From an uncultured Bacilli bacterium (GTDB taxonomy: Bacteria > Bacillota_I > Bacilli_A > RFN20 > CAG-826), in NCBI GenBank assembly GCA_905236715.1, contig CAJOMQ010000002.1:1-64000 (forward strand): a DNA stretch of 64,000 nucleotides, given 5' to 3'. Shown here one piece after another: positions 3,455 through 51,568 of this stretch. The notes under the pieces are model-generated. The model did no database searches and was not told the DNA's origin. It worked only from the letters and a program-made list of their open reading frames with translations. The position numbers and the translations under genes were made by a program. Positions within the stretch are counted from its first letter, which is position 1; every line of letters starts with the position of its first letter.

Positions 3455-6400
3455 TTATTCGGTTCTTAGCGCGACCACGGGGTCTTGTTTAGAAGCTTTC
3501 ATCGAAGGAATTAAACCAGAGATGACATTTAAGAAGATGGATAAGGCCACCATCACAAGGGCCATCCAAATTGGTAAGGCGGCAATGCCATATACGCCGA
3601 GGTGCATGACTGATAAATTCAAAATGAGTTGTAATAAATAAGTCACCAAGACACCAATAACACCACTAGCTAGGCCAATGATAAGGGTTTCGGCAATAAA
3701 TAGACGTGAAACATCTTTCTTTCTGCCGCCCAAAGAACGAATAACGCCGATTTCCTTGACCCTTTCCATCGTGGAAATATAAGTAATAACAGCGATCATA
3801 AAGCAAGAAACCACTAATGATAATGAAGTGAAAACAATCAAAGATATGGTCACCGCTAAAATGAGAGAATTCACAATTTCAATAATTAATTCAATGGTAT
3901 CAATATAGGTGAGTTCATCTCTTTCAGCACCAGTACGAGTAACATCACTACCATCGATATTAACGGTGATATCTTTTTTGGTATCATTCCATTCATCAAG
4001 ATATTTGGTAATTTTATTTTTTTCTGCAAAATTTTTAGGATAAATAAATATATCTTGCGGTAAATCTTCAAAATCATAACCGACGATTATGTCATCATCG
4101 TTAGTGAGATATTTAGTGGCTTGACCGCATAATTGACGTAAAGCAATTTTATCGGTATCAAAAGCACTAGAAGAGGAAAAGGAAATTAAATTAGATAAAT
4201 CAGAACCGGTATTTAACGCATTTGCGTAACCATTGATGCCATATTGTATTTCATCATCCTTATCACCTTTACGAAAAGATGTATATTGGTATTCCACGAA
4301 TGCTTCAAATGGTTCACCATCGTTTTCATCTTCCCCACCGATATAATTCTTCAATCCATATAAGGGATGAGAAACAATGTTGCTATCTTTTGCATCTTTC
4401 ATCAATTTCTTGGTTAAAGCGGGGGTGTAATAAGCACCACTACTTAAAGTACCAAACATATGGCCTTCTTTTTTCTTTAATAAACCAACAATTTTCATTT
4501 CTTGGCCATCTTCCCAATGAATACCATCTGGGGTACCAGCCATTGCATCATAATAATAGGTGTTTTTATTTTCTTCTTTCACAGTGTAAACGCCAACAGG
4601 ACCTAAAACAGTAGGAGGTAATAAAGAACCACCATATTCGCTTGTTAAATAGATTGTGCCGTCAGGATTTACCACTAAAATAAGACTCATTGTGTTGTCT
4701 TCATTGACGGGATAATTGAAGAGCACCCAGCGACCAGCATAATCTTTTTCACTATCTTTTCCATTTTCGTCATAACGTGGCATTTGCACATCAAAAGTTA
4801 AACCATTATAGAATTCACTAGAACTTGCGGTGCCTTCTAAAATATCTTCTCCTTCGTTATAGGAAACATTAATTTTAATATCAAAAGGATCCTTTGTGGG
4901 ATCTGGCGCAAATGTCGCGGGATCTAATTGATACATTTGCACAGTGCTACGCACACTTTGAATACTCTTTTCTTTATATGTCCAAATGGAATCATGAGGA
5001 TAATAGGTGAATTTTTTATTGAGAATATCGGTCATTTTATATTCGTGAGGATAGGGATATTTTTTATAAAGTTCATCACGTTCTTGCTCATATTCTTCTT
5101 CGGTGATTTCACCTTTATTTTTCATATCGCGTTTTTCATGTAATTTAATTGCACATTTAGCGATATTTAAGAATTCGTTTTCTTGGAAATAACCTAATTG
5201 AGCAAACAAGAAATCAGTCATCGTTTGATCATCATCAAGAACGAGTAACATTTCATTTTCATTGGTGGGGAAGTGAGCCTTTTCTCCTAATAAGTCGTAT
5301 TGACTTAAAATATAGTCTTCACCAGCAGGTAATTCCTTTAAGAAATTGGTGAAATAACGAACAAATTGTGCATATTGAGAAAAACCTGATACAGTCTTTA
5401 ATTCGGAAATATACATTTGGGTCAAGCCATTAAGAGAAATGTCATAATGAGCGGTTTTATCTCCTTCGGTTTTTCCGGCACCTCTCACCCAATCAGTAAA
5501 GATATTGTTCGTAGGGTCTAAACCATAATTATAAGATAAGGCCGCTACACTTTCTTTTGGAGCGCCTTCAACATAGGCCATTAAGAAATCATCGATTTCG
5601 TTAGTTTTAACGGAAGTGAAATCTTGATATTTATCCATAAGATAATTAATCATGGAATCAACACCAACTTCGGTTTTTAAATCAAAATTACTTAATTCCT
5701 TTTTATCCCAAGAAGATAATCCGTTAATTAAAGATGTGTAATCAACTGCGGTTTCACTAATTTGAATGGGATATTCGGAAAGCATATCATCTTGCATGTT
5801 ATCGATATAATTTTGAACACCAAAAGAAACCGCTAAAACGGAAGAGACACCAATAATGCCAATACTTCCCGCTACCGCGATTAATATGGTTCTTTTTAAT
5901 TTGGAAACGAGATTAGCGAAAGATAAACCAGTGGCGGTAAAGAAAGACATCGATGATTGTTTTTTATTACCTTTTGCAGCAATAATCTCCGCTTTTTTGG
6001 CTAAAGCGGCATCTAAATCGGCTTTACTTTCTCCACCATAGGGATTGCTATCATCAAGCAATAAACCATCGCTCATACGGACAATACGGTTCGCATATTG
6101 ATATGCTAAATCTGGATTATGCGTCACCATGATGACCAAGCGATCTTTAGCGACATCTTTTAATAAATCCATAATTTGGACACTGGTTTCACTATCAAGA
6201 GCGCCTGTGGGTTCATCCGCTAAAAGGATTTCGGGATTATTGACCAATGCACGGGCAATCGCCACTCTTTGCATTTGCCCACCACTTAATTGGTTGGGTT
6301 TTTTCCTTTCCATGCCTTCTAAGCCGACCCTTTGCAAAGCATCAAGAGCTCTTTGTTTTCTTTCTTCTTTGCTGACGCCAGATATAGTTAAAGCTAATTC

Positions 6401-6817: not shown

Positions 6818-7258
6818 TTATTCTTTGTTACGAACTTTATTGATTTTGTTTAAAAATTCAGCGTCGGTCTTAGGCTTTTCATTGATGATTTTGCTGAAAG
6901 TTCTCATTCTCAAATATGTAAAAAGCACAGTGATGATAAGAAATATTCCTGCGGGTAAAATAAAGGCCCACCAATAGGTCTTAGCTAATTCTTTGTTTAC
7001 CAAAAACATGATGAGCATCACAGTGACTAATAAGAACGCTACTATCGATGTAATAACAAATAAGATAACGGATGGGTATTGATAATTAGGATATTGTTTC
7101 TCTAATTTGACTAATTCGGAATAATAGGTAGTTTGATTATCTCTTTGGAAAAATAATTTATTATTTTCTTCTTTGACTAATTGCCATTCGAAAAGTTTGT
7201 ATTTTTCTTTGATGACAGTTTTATTTTCTTTATTTGTACGAACAATCTTTTCTTCCAT
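6818..7258 (-). CDS. small two-helix membrane protein, unknown
   Basis: 146 residues from ATG 7258 (the track starts earlier at a non-ATG codon through the promoter). A charged N-terminal cytosolic domain of about 60 residues is followed by two hydrophobic helices (VILFVITSIVAFLLVTVMLI and AFILPAGIFLIITVLFTY) and a basic tail. No family recognised. It is divergent from the TetR gene with only 78 bp between, and it lies just upstream of the large ABC gene, so all three may form one regulated locus. There is no SD; the promoter suggests a leaderless transcript. Confidence 0.6.
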   Translation of the reverse strand: MEEKIVRTNKENKTVIKEKYKLFEWQLVKEENNKLFFQRDNQTTYYSELVKLEKQYPNYQYPSVILFVITSIVAFLLVTVMLIMFLVNKELAKTYWWAFILPAGIFLIITVLFTYLRMRTFSKIINEKPKTDAEFLNKINKVRNKE

Positions 7259-7265
7259 AACCACT

Positions 7266-7294
7266 ATTTTATAGAGGGGATTAAAGATTGACAA
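7266..7294 (-). promoter_or_regulatory. promoter TTGTCA-17-TAAAAT, leaderless type
   Basis: TTGTCA (7289-7294) and TAAAAT (7266-7271) have a 17-bp spacer. The -10 ends 7 nt before the ATG at 7258, so transcription should begin at or next to the start codon. No Shine-Dalgarno is possible in that space. Confidence 0.6.
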
Positions 7295-7336: not shown

Positions 7337-7894
7337 ATGAAAACACAAAAGACTATTAATCATACAAAAAATCTCATTTCTTTTGCTTTAGTGCAACTAA
7401 TGTGGAAGAAAGATTATGAAAATATTACCATCAAAGAATTATGCGAAAAAGCGGGTGTTTCTCGTATGTCTTTTTATCGATATTACGATAACAAGGAAGA
7501 TATATTTATCGATTTTTGTGATGAGAGATTTGAAGAATTTTATGAAACCTACCTCAATACAACCTCGATTCGTTTTGAAGATTTTATCTTAAATCTATTT
7601 ACCTTTTTCAAAAAATATAATCGTCATTTGATTATTTTACGGAGAGCAGGAAAACAACAAATTTTATTAGCCCAATTTAATAATTACTTTAAATATTTGG
7701 TCTCTAAATCTAATTCTACGGTTATTCTCATGCAATCGAAAAATCCTGTTTTAGGTCCCTTATTAGCGGGTGGTATTTATAATGTTTTGATGGATTGGCT
7801 TGATGATGGCATGGAAAAAACACCAGAAGAGATGACAAAACTCATCTTATCGGTGCCATATATGATTTATGAAGAAATAATCCGCACAAACTAG
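7337..7894 (+). CDS. TetR/AcrR family transcriptional regulator
   Basis: 185 residues. The N-terminal helix-turn-helix covers residues 30-50 (ELCEKAGVSRMSFYRYYDNK), the characteristic TetR pattern ending in FYRYY. The remainder is helical, with a C-terminal part (LGPLLAGGIYNVLMDWLDDG) like the TetR_C domains of many Bacillota regulators. It is divergent from a membrane protein and near the MacB-type ABC gene, the usual arrangement for efflux regulators. The inducer is unknown. The stop overlaps the convergent VTT-protein stop by 4 nt. No SD is seen, so it may also be leaderless. Confidence 0.88.
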   Translation: MKTQKTINHTKNLISFALVQLMWKKDYENITIKELCEKAGVSRMSFYRYYDNKEDIFIDFCDERFEEFYETYLNTTSIRFEDFILNLFTFFKKYNRHLIILRRAGKQQILLAQFNNYFKYLVSKSNSTVILMQSKNPVLGPLLAGGIYNVLMDWLDDGMEKTPEEMTKLILSVPYMIYEEIIRTN

Positions 7895-8697
7895 GGGTTA
7901 TTTTCTTGGTTATTATCTTCTAGCGCTTTATTAAGCGCTTTTTTCTTTAAATACAAACTCAAATGTTTATCTATTACGCGAGCAATGATAAGAACAGTGA
8001 CTACACAAAGGGCCAAAGCAAAGAATAATTCGAAATATTGATAAAAATGATTACCGATAAATCCCCAATCAAATTTCTTGAGAGGTTCTAAAAGATTTTC
8101 TGGCAAGATATTGATGCCAAAGACAATGGTCGCGCATCCTACACCACGACATAAAATAATTTCAATAAGGTGGGTGATGAATTTCATCTTAGTAGCTCCC
8201 ACTACCATGCATATCGCATCATCTGGGAAAACGGGTAATAGATACATGACTGGTACATACACCATTCCTTTTTCCTGCACCAGCACCATCGCGGATTCAT
8301 AATCTTCTTTCCCAATGAGGGCTTTAATTAATTTTGATCCACCAAAACGACCAATTAAATCCATGACTACGCTAGCTAAAACAACGCCTGAAAAGCAAAT
8401 AAGGAAAGTTTTCCAATTAGCCCCAAACATCGCTACTGCAATCAAAATAAAAGTCATGCTAGCCCCAGGAACAAAGGATAAAAGTGTCGTAAATGCAATA
8501 TAAACTAATAGGTAAACAACAACAGACCAGGCACCAGTTGATTGAATAAATGACTGTAATTTATCAACATTAGTAATCCCAGTCGCGCGAAAAACAAAAT
8601 ATAGACTGACAGAAATAGCAATAATAACCAAAAGGGCAATCAAAACGCGTAACAATTTGATCTTTTTCTCTTTTGACCATTTTGGTTTATTTTTCAT
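7891..8697 (-). CDS. TVP38/TMEM64 family (VTT domain) membrane protein
   Basis: 268 residues from ATG 8697. A basic N-terminus is followed by a helix, then the VTT/SNARE-associated core (SFVPGASMTFILIAVAMFG, then FGGSKLIKALIG, then VYVPVMYLLPVFPDDAICMV) and two more helices. This DedA-related family is linked to lipid scrambling or membrane homeostasis; substrate unknown here. The ORF track start would run through the promoter. The true start lies only 9 nt after a perfect TATAAT, so a leaderless mRNA is likely. The stop overlaps that of the convergent TetR gene. Confidence 0.85.
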   Translation of the reverse strand: MKNKPKWSKEKKIKLLRVLIALLVIIAISVSLYFVFRATGITNVDKLQSFIQSTGAWSVVVYLLVYIAFTTLLSFVPGASMTFILIAVAMFGANWKTFLICFSGVVLASVVMDLIGRFGGSKLIKALIGKEDYESAMVLVQEKGMVYVPVMYLLPVFPDDAICMVVGATKMKFITHLIEIILCRGVGCATIVFGINILPENLLEPLKKFDWGFIGNHFYQYFELFFALALCVVTVLIIARVIDKHLSLYLKKKALNKALEDNNQENNP

Positions 8698-8706
8698 ATC
8701 GGAAAT

Positions 8707-8735
8707 ATTATAACAATTGATTGTTATTGGGTAAA
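8707..8735 (-). promoter_or_regulatory. promoter TTTACC-17-TATAAT with dyad in the spacer, leaderless type
   Basis: TTTACC (8730-8735), a 17-bp spacer and TATAAT (8707-8712); the ATG begins 10 nt downstream of the -10 box. AACAAT-TG-ATTGTT (8712-8725) is a perfect 6-bp dyad inside the spacer and could bind a repressor. Confidence 0.65.
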
Positions 8736-16420: not shown

Positions 16421-16738
16421 TTATAGATGAACTTTAACTTTGCTGCCATCTTCGTTAGGATGAGCATCTAAATATTCGATAATTGGTTTGAAATTCGTTT
16501 CTTCTTTGCCGGGCTTACATTTACGGAGGTTTTCTTCTTTGCCGGTGACAATCGCTTCCGCGAGAGATTTACAGCCAGCATAACCACAACTACCACAATT
16601 ATAATTGGGTAATTTTTTCGCTACTTCTTCAATTCTTTCATCTTCTTTGACATGCAAAACTTTGGCCGCAATCGCTAAACCAAGGCCTAATAATATACCT
16701 AAGCCTAATAAGATAAGAACACCCCATAAAATTTCCAT
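16421..16738 (-). CDS. rnfB: RnfB, truncated to helix plus one 4Fe-4S domain
   Basis: 105 residues. An N-terminal helix (GVLILLGLGILLGLGLAIAA) is followed by the Fes-type Fe-S domain CGSCGYAGCKSLAEAI with a fourth Cys in LRKCKPG. Usual RnfB proteins are about 250-330 residues and carry at least two further ferredoxin-like clusters, which receive electrons from ferredoxin. Here the protein ends about 25 residues after the Fes domain, and apbE begins 27 nt later, leaving no space for a separated tail. It overlaps the small Cys-rich gene by 1 nt. Role: cytoplasmic electron-entry subunit of Rnf, in reduced form. Confidence 0.9.
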   Translation of the reverse strand: MEILWGVLILLGLGILLGLGLAIAAKVLHVKEDERIEEVAKKLPNYNCGSCGYAGCKSLAEAIVTGKEENLRKCKPGKEETNFKPIIEYLDAHPNEDGSKVKVHL

Positions 16739-16941
16739 TATTGTTGTTCCTCCTTATCTTTTCCTTGATAATTAGCGCATTCACTATGGCCACACATTGA
16801 GCAATGTTCATCATTAATTTGGATATCTTCGCATCCTTTTGGGACAGGTGTTTTCCGATATAAAACAAAAGATATGATAAAAACCGCTAATAAAACAATG
16901 AGGATTGATATTGCAATGATTAAATAACCCGTTGTTGTCAT
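16738..16941 (-). CDS. one-helix Cys-rich protein, NqrM-like, in the rnf operon
   Basis: 67 residues: an N-terminal helix (YLIIAISILIVLLAVFIISF), a short basic hinge, then four Cys spaced C-x9-C-x2-C-x4-C (GCED...HCSMCGHSEC) and a charged tail. This layout matches NqrM, which helps load the Fe-S site shared by the NqrD/NqrE subunits, homologues of RnfE/RnfA. Its place between rnfA and rnfB, with 4-nt and 1-nt overlaps, supports an Rnf role. Sequence identity to NqrM cannot be tested here; it could instead be an extra Fe-S or electron-transfer subunit making up for the short RnfB. Confidence 0.6.
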   Translation of the reverse strand: MTTTGYLIIAISILIVLLAVFIISFVLYRKTPVPKGCEDIQINDEHCSMCGHSECANYQGKDKEEQQ

Positions 16942-18824: not shown

Positions 18825-19938
18825 GATAAATACCTCCATAACTGAGGGCTAACCAAATAATTAACGCGGGTATGACAATCAATAATCCCATCGCTAAGAA
18901 TTTTTTCCATGTATAACGAGGATTGCTCCATTCGTAGTGGTCTAAAACCACCGCAAACATATTGGCAATAAGGATGGAGAATCCAACACCTTCTGGTAAA
19001 GCGGCAAATAAACGAATGAAAATTGTACAAATAGCAGCCACAATGCCATACATATAACGAGATGGAGAATTAATTGGGGAAGTGACGGGATCAGTCAACA
19101 TAAAGACACCACCAAATAAAACACCACCACTTAATAAACTATAGGCTGTGAAATAGAATGGGTTAATGGATTTATCTAAACCCCATAAACTCAATCCAGC
19201 GATAAGAGCAAATAAAGTGAAGGAGCCAAGATAACCAACCACAATTCGATAATCAATACTTCTTCTAATTAATAAGTATATTAATCCGATAAGAATTGTT
19301 ATCGAATATACTTCACCTAAAGTGCCAGGAATACGGCCTAAAAACATATCTAATAAATTGTATTGGCCAAGGGCGTTAAATCCACCATTATTGATAACCG
19401 CTAAAGGAGTCGCCCCAGCGGCCGCATCAGGAATGGAATAATACCAAGTTGAGGTCACGGTTTGATATTGACTACCAAAACATAATTTGGCAAAAATCAT
19501 GCCAACGGCAGCGGGATTAAAAATATTACTTCCTAATCCACCAAATAACAATTTGCCAAAAACAATTCCCGCTAAAGCGCCGATAGCAACAGCATATAAC
19601 GGAGCACCAGCAGGCATAATAAGAGTGTATATGACAGCGGTAACCGCGCAAGATAAGAAAGTATTTTGGTTAAAATGACCTTTATAAGCGTAGATAAATT
19701 TTTCTTTAAAACGATGCTTTTGATCATCTTTTGGCATCATGTTTTTTAAACCAATATAGATAAATTCACAAGCTAACATGATGGAAACAGAAATTAAATA
19801 AACATATAAAGTGTTCAAAGGAAACACAACAAAAGCAAAAATCAGTGTTGGTGCTAAAGCAATCAACACATCCACCATCATTCTCGTGACCGTGGCTTTT
19901 CTTCTTAAATGTGGAGCGGTTTCTTTGACAATATTCAT
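18817..19938 (-). CDS. rnfD: electron transport complex subunit RnfD
   Basis: 373 residues with about nine helices. Hallmarks: an N-terminal APHLRRKATVTRMM amphipathic stretch, GLGSNIFNPAAVGMI, and GGVFMLTDPVTSPINSP. RnfD carries flavins and forms the ion path. It overlaps rnfC by 4 nt and rnfG by 8 nt. Confidence 0.97.
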   Translation of the reverse strand: MNIVKETAPHLRRKATVTRMMVDVLIALAPTLIFAFVVFPLNTLYVYLISVSIMLACEFIYIGLKNMMPKDDQKHRFKEKFIYAYKGHFNQNTFLSCAVTAVIYTLIMPAGAPLYAVAIGALAGIVFGKLLFGGLGSNIFNPAAVGMIFAKLCFGSQYQTVTSTWYYSIPDAAAGATPLAVINNGGFNALGQYNLLDMFLGRIPGTLGEVYSITILIGLIYLLIRRSIDYRIVVGYLGSFTLFALIAGLSLWGLDKSINPFYFTAYSLLSGGVLFGGVFMLTDPVTSPINSPSRYMYGIVAAICTIFIRLFAALPEGVGFSILIANMFAVVLDHYEWSNPRYTWKKFLAMGLLIVIPALIIWLALSYGGIYHV

Positions 19939-21242
19939 AATTTAGCAATTAATTTGGCTTTTCTAATATAATCGGTGACTTGAATTTTGGAAGTACACGA
20001 ATAGGCACATAGACCACATTCAATGCATTTTAAAGGATTCAAGGCTTTAATTCTTTCTTTATCTAATGTTTTGACCGCGTTCATAATTTGCACCGGTTCT
20101 AGATGAACAGGACAAGATAAAACGCAGCTTCCGCATCTAATACAAGGTTCTTCTTTTTCGTTTACTTTGTCTAAAACAATAATAGAGGTCACGGTTTTGG
20201 TGATAATACAATCATCACTTGGTACAGATGCACCCATCATCGGACCACCTAAAATAAAGACTTTTTCTTTATCGGGATTTTTATATCCACCACATAAGGG
20301 GATTAAATCACGAATAGAGGTGCCGACACGGACACGGAAATTTTTCGGAAACATAATCCCATCACCCGTGACAGTGATATCTCTTTTGACAACGGGCATA
20401 TTATATTTCACCGCTTTATAAATACCCACCATCGTGGAGACATTGAAGTTCATAATGCCACGATTTGAAGGTAATTCGCCGGAATTTAATTGAATACCGG
20501 TCGCGGATTTAATCATTTCTACTTCCCAACCTTGGGGGTAATAATTACCAACGCAACAAAGTTCAATGCCAGAACCAGCATATTCTTTTAAGACTTGGGT
20601 ATAGACCGCTTTGATATCTTTATATTTAGATTTGATACAAATTTTCGCGTGTTGACATTTAAATGTCTTCATCACATAAGTAATCGCATCCATAATGCGG
20701 TAAGGAAATTCCAACATTAAGCGGTGATCCGCGGTGATATATGGTTCGCATTCAATACCATTAATCAAAATCATATTGATGGGTTTATCGGTTTTGAATT
20801 TGATATATGTGGGGAAAGAAGAACCTCCTAATCCCACCATCGCACAATTTTTCATTAATTCGGTCATCTTTTCTTTATCGTTGACCAATTCTTCAATTTC
20901 TTCGGGGGTGCGAATAATCGCGGAAGGATCTAATGTGTCTAAAAAATCATTTTCAATTTTGATGAAATCCGTCAATTTGCCGTTGCGGTGATAATGCTTT
21001 TCATAGCCGACAAAAGTGCCAGAACATGTGGCGTGGATGGGTTGTTCAAAAAAGGGACCATAACGCATGCCGATGACTTGACAGACATTGACGTGTTCGC
21101 CTTCTTTGACAAAAACTTCCGCTTTTGGACAACGGGCATTGGCGGTTGCTAAATAAATATATTTGGGATTAGTATATCTAATAGCAGGCAAAGAACTCGT
21201 GAGATTTTTAGTATCGTGAATCTTGGTAGTTTTTGCAATCAT
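19935..21242 (-). CDS. rnfC: electron transport complex subunit RnfC
   Basis: 435 residues. An N-terminal beta-rich domain, then the NADH/FMN-binding part with GLGGSSFPTYIKF and INGIECEPYITADHRL, and two C-terminal 4Fe-4S motifs (CIRCGSCVLSCP near 375, CIECGLCAYSC near 412). It exchanges electrons with NAD on the cytosolic side. First gene of the rnf operon; there is no Shine-Dalgarno and the promoter points to a leaderless transcript. Confidence 0.97.
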   Translation of the reverse strand: MIAKTTKIHDTKNLTSSLPAIRYTNPKYIYLATANARCPKAEVFVKEGEHVNVCQVIGMRYGPFFEQPIHATCSGTFVGYEKHYHRNGKLTDFIKIENDFLDTLDPSAIIRTPEEIEELVNDKEKMTELMKNCAMVGLGGSSFPTYIKFKTDKPINMILINGIECEPYITADHRLMLEFPYRIMDAITYVMKTFKCQHAKICIKSKYKDIKAVYTQVLKEYAGSGIELCCVGNYYPQGWEVEMIKSATGIQLNSGELPSNRGIMNFNVSTMVGIYKAVKYNMPVVKRDITVTGDGIMFPKNFRVRVGTSIRDLIPLCGGYKNPDKEKVFILGGPMMGASVPSDDCIITKTVTSIIVLDKVNEKEEPCIRCGSCVLSCPVHLEPVQIMNAVKTLDKERIKALNPLKCIECGLCAYSCTSKIQVTDYIRKAKLIAKL

Positions 21243-21250
21243 ACTTAATA

Positions 21251-21279
21251 AGTATAAACTACTTTTTTTCTATTTCCAA
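21251..21279 (-). promoter_or_regulatory. rnf operon promoter TTGGAA-17-TATACT, leaderless type
   Basis: TTGGAA (21274-21279), a 17-bp spacer and TATACT (21251-21256). The rnfC ATG starts 9 nt downstream of the -10 box, so the message would start at or within a few nucleotides of the ATG. Confidence 0.65.
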
Positions 21280-21388
21280 TAAGTAAAAACGAGGGGCAAT
21301 AAGTAAATTTTATAATGGGAAGCAAAAATCAAAGACTAGTCAAGATAACGAATTGTGTTAAAATGAGAATTAATCCGAGGAAATTATT

Positions 21389-39278: not shown

Positions 39279-39953
39279 CTAAAGGTGAAATTTAAAATCG
39301 CATTTACGACACGAAAAGTGGTTATTTGTAGTTTCGATTATTGCTCCACCACATTTAGGACATTTCCGATTTTCAATTGCATAGCGGATGTCATCGTGCC
39401 TATCGTTTCTTTCTTGTTTTATTTTTTCAATGTTTGCGAGATGACTTTCCATAGAAGCATCACTTTCTTTATAGAGAAGACACTTATAAATGGAATCAAT
39501 TTCATCATTAGTTAAATTCCTTTGATTTGGATATTCATTAACAAAAAGAGATAAATCAGAAATGTTAATAACATTTTCATCGGGAAAATATGGAGCGTTA
39601 TCTAAGGTGAAAATAACACCAGATATTATTTCTACATTGGGGCCTAATATTTTTCTGACAATCCGGACATGACTATTATTTTGTAAAAGAGGGTTATGGA
39701 TATTAATTTTCTTGCCTTTGATGATTTTATACCAAATGGTATCGTGAGCATCGCCATGAATCTCACCATAAAGGGATTTACTTTCCAAAATAAAAACACC
39801 ATGTCGATTGATAAAGATATGGTCTATTTGGTGTGTCATACCATTATTACCTTCTAGAGTGAGATTATTAATAAGACGAAAATAATCTTTTTCTTTCTCT
39901 AGTAAGGCAATAACTTTTTGTTCGCCTTTATCTCCACGTGATTTTTTTGACAT
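39279..39953 (-). CDS. NERD domain protein with C-terminal zinc ribbon
   Basis: 224 residues. NERD (nuclease-related) domain: GDKGEQKVIALLEKE, QIDHIFINRHGVFILESKSL with the D...E-x-K type acidic/basic residues, and a final zinc ribbon CPKCGGAI and CRKCDFKFH. NERD proteins are thought to act on DNA, but few are characterised. TATAAT ends 6 nt before its ATG (minus strand), without SD, consistent with leaderless expression. Only 27 nt separate it from the divergent GH13 gene. Confidence 0.85.
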   Translation of the reverse strand: MSKKSRGDKGEQKVIALLEKEKDYFRLINNLTLEGNNGMTHQIDHIFINRHGVFILESKSLYGEIHGDAHDTIWYKIIKGKKINIHNPLLQNNSHVRIVRKILGPNVEIISGVIFTLDNAPYFPDENVINISDLSLFVNEYPNQRNLTNDEIDSIYKCLLYKESDASMESHLANIEKIKQERNDRHDDIRYAIENRKCPKCGGAIIETTNNHFSCRKCDFKFHL

Positions 39954-39980
39954 AATTTAATTATAAGGGTGAAAAAAACT

Positions 39981-41753: not shown

Positions 41754-41782
41754 TTGCCATTTTTAAAGTGGCAGTTTATAGT
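41754..41782 (+). promoter_or_regulatory. promoter TTGCCA-17-TATAGT, leaderless type
   Basis: TTGCCA (41754-41759), a 17-bp spacer and TATAGT (41777-41782); the ATG at 41793 begins 11 nt later with no SD. Between tRNA-Pro and this promoter (41497-41753) I see only an imperfect hairpin AAAACCCGTC/GACAGGTTTT near 41648-41678. Confidence 0.65.
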
Positions 41783-41792
41783 GTTTTCAAAT

Positions 41793-42854
41793 ATGAAAAA
41801 CAAAGCATTATTTACGAGTATTTTAGTAGGAATTTCCTTATCTACATTAGTCGGTTGCCAACAAAAAGATAATCGCATCCGTTTATCTTTTGGTTCACCA
41901 CTGGCGACTGAAGCGACGGAATTAACATATGCCGAATTAGTGGCCCGTATGGATAATGGGGAAAATATGATCGTTGTCACCTATGATTCCATTTATTCCG
42001 CGGATTGCTCTTGCTGGACCAATTTTAAGAAAATTGTCGATAAATATGTCGATGATAACGACACAATTATTTATCAAATTGACCGTAACGAATTTGAGGG
42101 ACATGAAGAAAATTATGGCCTCACCTTATTAAAAGAAAATAGCAACCCCACTTGTTTTATTGCTAGCCACGGGGAAGTGAAAAATGAATATCGTGCGGGT
42201 AGCAAAAATAATGAAGCTATTTTTAAAACCGAAGACGGTTTCTCTTCCATTATTAAAAAAGTGACAAAACCCGCACAAATAATGCTCGTAAATAGAGATT
42301 ATTTAAGAAACGCGATTGATTCTGGTGATAAATTAATTGTTTATCAAGCCAGAAATGCTTGTGGTGATTGCAATTATTGCACACCTAATTTCCTTTTACC
42401 TTATAGTGATAACAATGAATTAAAAACCAAAATCTTTTTAATGGATTTACAAGTTCCTGGTATCTATTATGATGCGGAAATGAATATGGATACTGAAACA
42501 TATGCCGCTTATAAAAATGAATATCAAATGACAGAAGCCACAAATGCGAAATATGGTTATATCACGGGTGTGGTTCCTACTTTCCAAGTTTGGGAAAATA
42601 AAGAATTAAAAGATGCTTGTGTTTATTTTAATGATTCATTAACAAAAGTCGATGATAAATGGGTTGTTGATACCACTTATTACACTAGTGAACGCGTTGG
42701 TAATTTAGCTTATACCAACACCGTTTTAAAAGGAAAAGTAGTCGCTGATGAAGATGTCTTTATTTGGGGCGATAATGGTTATTGGAACCAAGACGCCGCG
42801 GCCAAAGAACATAACCCCATCTTAGAAAGTTTCTTAAATTATTACGCTAAATAA
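41793..42854 (+). CDS. lipoprotein with two thioredoxin-like domains
   Basis: 353 residues from ATG 41793. Signal peptide ends in lipobox STLVGC. Two thioredoxin-like segments follow: the first with SADCSCWTNFKKIVDKYV (Cys-x-Cys, near residue 70) and a cis-Pro-like SNPTCFIASHG; the second with CGDCNYCTPNFLLPY (Cys-x2-Cys-x2-Cys, near 190) and GVVPTFQVWENK as cis-Pro region. So it is a membrane-anchored, extracellular redox or adhesion-like protein. Thiol-oxidase activity is not shown. Its stop overlaps the convergent add stop by 8 nt. Confidence 0.72.
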   Translation: MKNKALFTSILVGISLSTLVGCQQKDNRIRLSFGSPLATEATELTYAELVARMDNGENMIVVTYDSIYSADCSCWTNFKKIVDKYVDDNDTIIYQIDRNEFEGHEENYGLTLLKENSNPTCFIASHGEVKNEYRAGSKNNEAIFKTEDGFSSIIKKVTKPAQIMLVNRDYLRNAIDSGDKLIVYQARNACGDCNYCTPNFLLPYSDNNELKTKIFLMDLQVPGIYYDAEMNMDTETYAAYKNEYQMTEATNAKYGYITGVVPTFQVWENKELKDACVYFNDSLTKVDDKWVVDTTYYTSERVGNLAYTNTVLKGKVVADEDVFIWGDNGYWNQDAAAKEHNPILESFLNYYAK

Positions 42855-51031: not shown

Positions 51032-51037
51032 TATAAA
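51032..51037 (+). promoter_or_regulatory. -10 box TATAAA 6 nt before ATG, leaderless type
   Basis: TATAAA-AGAAAT-ATG; no SD can fit. The -35 is weak. The last CGGTAATT repeat overlaps the upstream part of this promoter. Confidence 0.5.
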
Positions 51038-51043
51038 AGAAAT

Positions 51044-51568
51044 ATGGATAAAGATGAATTAAGAAAAATAATCCTCCAGGAAAGAAAGAATATTGAAGAT
51101 AAAGAGAATAAAGATGCTTACATCTGTCAAAAGATTATTTCTTCCATTCATTTTATGAATAGTAAAACGATTGCTTTTTATATGGCAAAAGATGGGGAAG
51201 CTGATATCATCACTGCAACTATAGAGGCCTGGAAATCAGGAAAAACCGTGGTTTTACCAAAAATTATCAATAACGAATTAAATTTTGTACTCTATCAACA
51301 AGGAGATACCTTATTAAGAGGGAAATTCAATATCTTGGAGCCAAAAGAAAATATCATTGTTCCTCCCGGAGATATCGATTTATTTATTATTCCTGGTCTG
51401 GCCTTTGATGAAAAATATCATCGCTTAGGGTATGGAAAAGGTTATTACGATCGATATTTAAAAAATGTTAATGCTTATAAAATTGGTGTTTGCTATAAAA
51501 AATTTCTTTTTAAAGAAATACCCTATAATCAAAACGATGTATTAATGGATGAAATATTAACAGAATAA
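51044..51568 (+). CDS. 5-formyltetrahydrofolate cyclo-ligase
   Basis: 174 residues from ATG 51044 (the track start lies in the promoter). Motifs of the MTHFS family: SKTIAFYMAKDGEADI, LFIIPGLAFDEKYHRLGYGK then GYYDRYL, the phosphate/ATP-binding Gly-rich region. Converts 5-formyl-THF to 5,10-methenyl-THF with ATP. Monocistronic and probably leaderless. Confidence 0.93.
   Translation: MDKDELRKIILQERKNIEDKENKDAYICQKIISSIHFMNSKTIAFYMAKDGEADIITATIEAWKSGKTVVLPKIINNELNFVLYQQGDTLLRGKFNILEPKENIIVPPGDIDLFIIPGLAFDEKYHRLGYGKGYYDRYLKNVNAYKIGVCYKKFLFKEIPYNQNDVLMDEILTE

Follow-up and report, generated by a model that had tools for sequence, protein, structure and literature searches.

A minority of the genes that lead transcription units in the uncultured Bacilli genome analyzed here have a housekeeping-type promoter immediately adjacent to the start codon, and we consider it very likely that these genes are expressed from leaderless or near-leaderless mRNAs. 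Shine-Dalgarno (SD) sequences are absent from these genes, and for several of them, including rnfC, the first gene of the rnf operon, both the start and the promoter position recur in related species. The window, by which we mean the whole stretch of DNA that was analyzed (64,000 nt, GC content 35%), is part of a 1.29-Mb metagenome-assembled genome (MAG; G000) comprising 25 contigs, and its rnfC has relatives at 74–84% identity in bins from ruminant and other metagenomes that bear the titles Bacilli, Bacillales or Erysipelotrichaceae bacterium.

Transcription normally starts ~6–8 nt beyond the end of the −10 box, and therefore gaps of 6–8 nt between box and ATG would place the transcription start on the AUG or immediately beside it, while gaps of 9–10 nt would leave 0–4 nt; genes of the latter kind may carry a leader of 2–4 nt. 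The first nucleotide transcribed by RNA polymerase would thus be the A of the AUG or lie 1–4 nt upstream of it, and a ribosome bearing initiator tRNA would recognize the 5′-terminal AUG of the SD-free mRNA directly. From the promoter positions we infer both these transcript 5′ ends and initiation of the 70S/IF2 type. Many other genes, including the later rnf genes rnfA and rnfB, use ordinary SD sites.

Near-ATG promoters are confined to genes without SD sequences

To compare promoter position with SD content, we sampled 384 kb of the genome outside the window, one 20-kb stretch per contig, containing 147 unit-leading genes, which were defined from gene order only as having a divergent neighbor or an intergenic gap of at least 60 nt. 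Gene starts were picked by a script that uses coding potential and is blind to SD and promoter signals, so some of the genes scored as lacking an SD will be miscalled starts. Promoters were scored with a fixed sigma-A-type model (−35 box, spacer and −10 box) drawn from general knowledge and unfitted to this genome, with a threshold score of >5; bare boxes near the ATG were defined as TANNNT with at least 5/6 matches to TATAAT. The organism's own 16S rRNA was not found in the MAG. A clade-wide promoter set was biased, many of its loci having been fetched via rnfC and the 6818 gene (described below) themselves, and the statistics therefore rest on the genome's own sample outside the window.

In this sample, promoters with gaps of 5–10 nt were found in 12/70 no-SD leading genes, 0/56 SD genes and 1/99 operon-internal genes (Fisher p = 0.001 versus SD genes and p = 0.0001 versus internal genes). 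With the window included, the corresponding counts were 16/85, 0/72 and 1/116. Among no-SD leading genes the distribution of gaps peaked at 6–9 nt and was empty at 11–13 nt, while SD genes had promoters only from a gap of 18 nt and beyond. The start codon was ATG in all 16 above-threshold near-ATG cases, and those in the window matched an SD at 0–3 bases, in line with the claim that these leading genes lack one. In stretches taken at random from three related genomes, the counts for gap 5–10 promoters were 2/38 versus 0/35, a weak result in the same direction.

One alternative is that, in a genome of 35% GC, the near-ATG boxes are TA-rich hexamers that arose by chance and the true promoters lie upstream of AU-rich, SD-less leaders. 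The count of bare boxes lends this some weight, being only moderately above expectation (23/184 unit-leading genes; mean 13.1 and maximum 23 in 200 shuffles). Even so, an SD was absent in all 23 of these genes and a box was present in 1/115 internal genes, and the full promoters at gaps of 5–10 nt fell in no-SD genes and in none of the 56–72 SD genes, which argues against chance. Together with the recurrence of the rnfC box described below, this leads us to regard the chance explanation as unlikely.

Direct detection puts the leaderless share at ~8% of unit-leading genes. Among SD genes, the full model detects a promoter in 36%, and correcting for promoter detection, on the assumption that promoters are equally strong in the SD and no-SD classes, raises the share of leaderless or nearly leaderless genes to roughly 19%. 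The proposal of mixed leaderless and leadered initiation is thus supported by position statistics and conservation, and the word “widespread” used for it holds only if a minority of genes is meant. Cases outside the window included genes for an AraC-type regulator, a DUF3990 protein with an HTH, an EAL/GGDEF protein, an LPG-synthase-type membrane protein, a UvrD/PcrA helicase and an aldose epimerase, and no functional theme was evident among the near-ATG promoter genes of the genome sample.

The rnfC promoter and start codon

The rnfC gene (19935..21242, minus strand; TIGR01945, E = 6.5e-98) begins at the ATG at 21242–21240. Its −10 box TATACT (21251..21256, minus strand) ends 8 nt before the ATG and is preceded, across a 17-nt spacer, by the −35 box TTGGAA (21274..21279, minus strand), exactly as the original prediction had described; the promoter scored 7.3. 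The start residue is conserved in 29 clade members, which align from residue 1. A TANNNT box lies 4–11 nt before the ATG in 23 of these 29 (shuffle mean 10.4, maximum 18 in 500 shuffles), and its gaps cluster, at 6 nt in 9 genes and 8 nt in 12 genes, within upstream DNA that has otherwise diverged, a pattern that speaks against chance hexamers. The box is missing in 6/29 relatives, and five relatives have an SD-like match of 4–5 bases.

Two more distant loci (L083 and L084) start rnfC at the same residue, at a GTG preceded by AAAGGGTG, an SD, and by apparent coding sequence. The shared residue indicates that the rnfC start is correct, and that lineages have switched between the two modes of initiation at one start codon.

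We also considered a 7-bp inverted repeat spanning the rnfC −10 box and start (ATACTTA T TAAGTAT) and rejected it, as it is not kept in relatives. In one relative (L064), upstream of position 4001, the inverted repeat TTGTTAATAAATAACAA, which resembles a Rex-type operator, lies just upstream of the rnfC promoter; it is absent from most relatives.

Other unit-leading genes in the window

The boxes and gaps described for five further genes were all present in the sequence, and three of these genes are the stronger candidates. The gene for a VTT-domain membrane protein (7891..8697, minus strand; PF09335; ATG at 8697), predicted to be leaderless, has a −10 box TATAAT (8707..8712, minus strand) at a gap of 9 nt and, across a 17-nt spacer, a −35 box TTTACC (8730–8735). 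A gene for a small membrane protein, likewise predicted to be leaderless and here called the 6818 gene (6818..7258, minus strand; ATG at 7258), has the −10 box TAAAAT (7266..7271, minus strand) at a gap of 7 nt and the −35 box TTGTCA (7289–7294), again with a 17-nt spacer. The third candidate encodes a 353-aa protein with a lipoprotein-like N-terminus (41793..42854, plus strand; ATG at 41793), for which Pfam and NCBIfam searches did not confirm the description “thioredoxin-like”; its −10 box TATAGT (41777..41782, plus strand) at a gap of 10 nt and −35 box TTGCCA (41754–41759), with a 17-nt spacer, gave the best promoter score of the sample (9.0). The promoters of these three genes and of rnfC are among the 16 above-threshold near-ATG promoters of the genome sample.

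Orthologs of the three genes mostly repeat the geometry within the genus or family. For the VTT gene, same-genus orthologs (L191–L193) keep the −10 box beside the ATG, and one from another family (L197) has an SD; the six nearer orthologs of the 6818 gene (L234–L239) have a TATAAT-like box beside ATGGAA without an SD; and seven orthologs of the 353-aa gene (L206, L208, L209, L211, L214, L215 and L220) keep the arrangement, while more distant ones have SDs. The SD-bearing leaders of some distant VTT and 353-aa relatives would also suit the chance explanation considered above. A second alternative, that the start codons were wrongly called and the genes start at SD sites elsewhere in the frames, would fit the predicted nature of the gene starts and the VTT gene, whose start is less clear than that of rnfC, with further in-frame ATGs upstream at −90 and −102 (34 codons), but is highly improbable given that rnfC relatives share one start residue, even where they use an SD, and that orthologs of the 6818 and 353-aa genes begin within ~1 residue of the same place.

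The remaining two genes of the predicted set of six are weak cases. The 5-formyltetrahydrofolate (5-FTHF) cyclo-ligase gene (PF01812; ATG at 51044) has TATAAA (51032..51037, plus strand) 6 nt before its ATG, a box with no T at position 6 and no evident −35, and only 2 orthologs were found among 33 genomes. The NERD gene (PF08378; ATG at 39953) has TATAAT (39960..39965, minus strand) at a gap of 6 nt, with no TTG-like −35, and the box is not kept in two relatives (L246/L247). Both are individually unconvincing as leaderless genes.

Further features of the rnf operon

RnfB (16421–16738, minus strand) is only 105 aa long, with a transmembrane segment and the PF04060 Fe-S motif, and lacks the ferredoxin-type domain that TIGR01944 has at its C-terminus; its short length and C-terminus are conserved in ~28 relatives examined, and no second match to the RnfB N-terminus was found in its own genome. 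Between rnfA and rnfB, and overlapping both, lies an unlisted 67-aa ORF (16738–16941, minus strand) with one transmembrane helix and a conserved cysteine motif of the KTPxPKGCExx...KCxxCxxxxC type, present in 13/13 relatives inspected and matching no Pfam family, which is possibly an extra Fe-S subunit accompanying the short RnfB. In the outgroup rnf operon of L083 (6485–9292), a very long RnfG-like ORF of 936 aa with repeated units is still open where the locus ends.

Ribosomal protein S1

A match to multi-domain, rpsA/YpfD-type S1 was absent, as sampled, from five members of the family (G000, G016, G022, G023 and G063; family f1) and from one further genome of the same order (G035). These genomes gave single S1-domain matches only, and the multi-domain match was present in many other Bacilli. 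We rejected S1 loss alone as the cause, since four other genomes that also lack it (G060, G067, G081 and G111) show little near-ATG promoter signal (~100 kb per genome, small samples). It is a speculative and rather improbable proposal that, in an S1-less Bacilli lineage, particular operons would use leaderless initiation as a conserved means of regulation, with the Rnf pump tied to 70S/IF2-dependent initiation and the later rnf genes to SD sites, so that energy conservation would be linked to the state of the ribosome.

Relation to known leaderless systems

Leaderless initiation is itself already known, the established route, worked out in E. coli, using a 5′-terminal AUG, initiator tRNA and IF2 (PMC10783764, PMC6431027). 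The view that a mixed system is unusual for Bacillota outside mycoplasmas proved wrong. By mapping of transcription start sites, leaderless mRNAs make up 8.6% of mRNAs in S. pyogenes and 9% in both S. agalactiae and S. pneumoniae, with leaderless status 81% conserved between two streptococci (PMC6431027), and nine leaderless transcripts are known in M. gallisepticum (PMC4245973). Zheng et al. (2011) predicted leaderless genes in 56/209 Firmicutes genomes, and in Lactobacillales and Mycoplasma, with TA-like-signal leaderless genes in, e.g., Lactococcus, Leuconostoc and Mycoplasma (18.3% on average) (PMC3160421), and GeneMarkS-2 is cited as predicting leaderless transcription in 21.6% of bacterial species (PMC9581028).

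The streptococci resemble our case in being low-GC Bacillota with mixed leaderless and SD genes and leaderless status conserved among species; they differ in that 5′ ends were mapped there and are predicted here, and in belonging to a different Bacilli lineage (PMC6431027). Unlike in streptococci, no multi-domain S1-type protein was found in the sampled members of this family. The TA-like genes of Zheng et al. share a TATAAT-type box at a distance fitting a transcription start at the translation initiation site (PMC3160421), whereas in our genome the strongest cases also draw on −35 boxes. The GeneMarkS-2 leaderless class is alike in placing a promoter beside the start codon of the first genes of units and SDs before others (PMC9581028).

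In the open-access literature searched, we found no report of leaderless genes in this lineage, and what is new seems to be the lineage, unreported so far. The finding adds an uncultured Bacilli lineage of the ruminant gut to those with mixed leaderless and SD initiation; in its MAGs, SD-reliant start prediction can misplace or miss such genes. The leaderless status of the rnf operon and of the VTT, 6818 and 353-aa genes seems to be conserved, and the gene set is useful for studying why leaderless starts persist in some operons over long evolutionary times.
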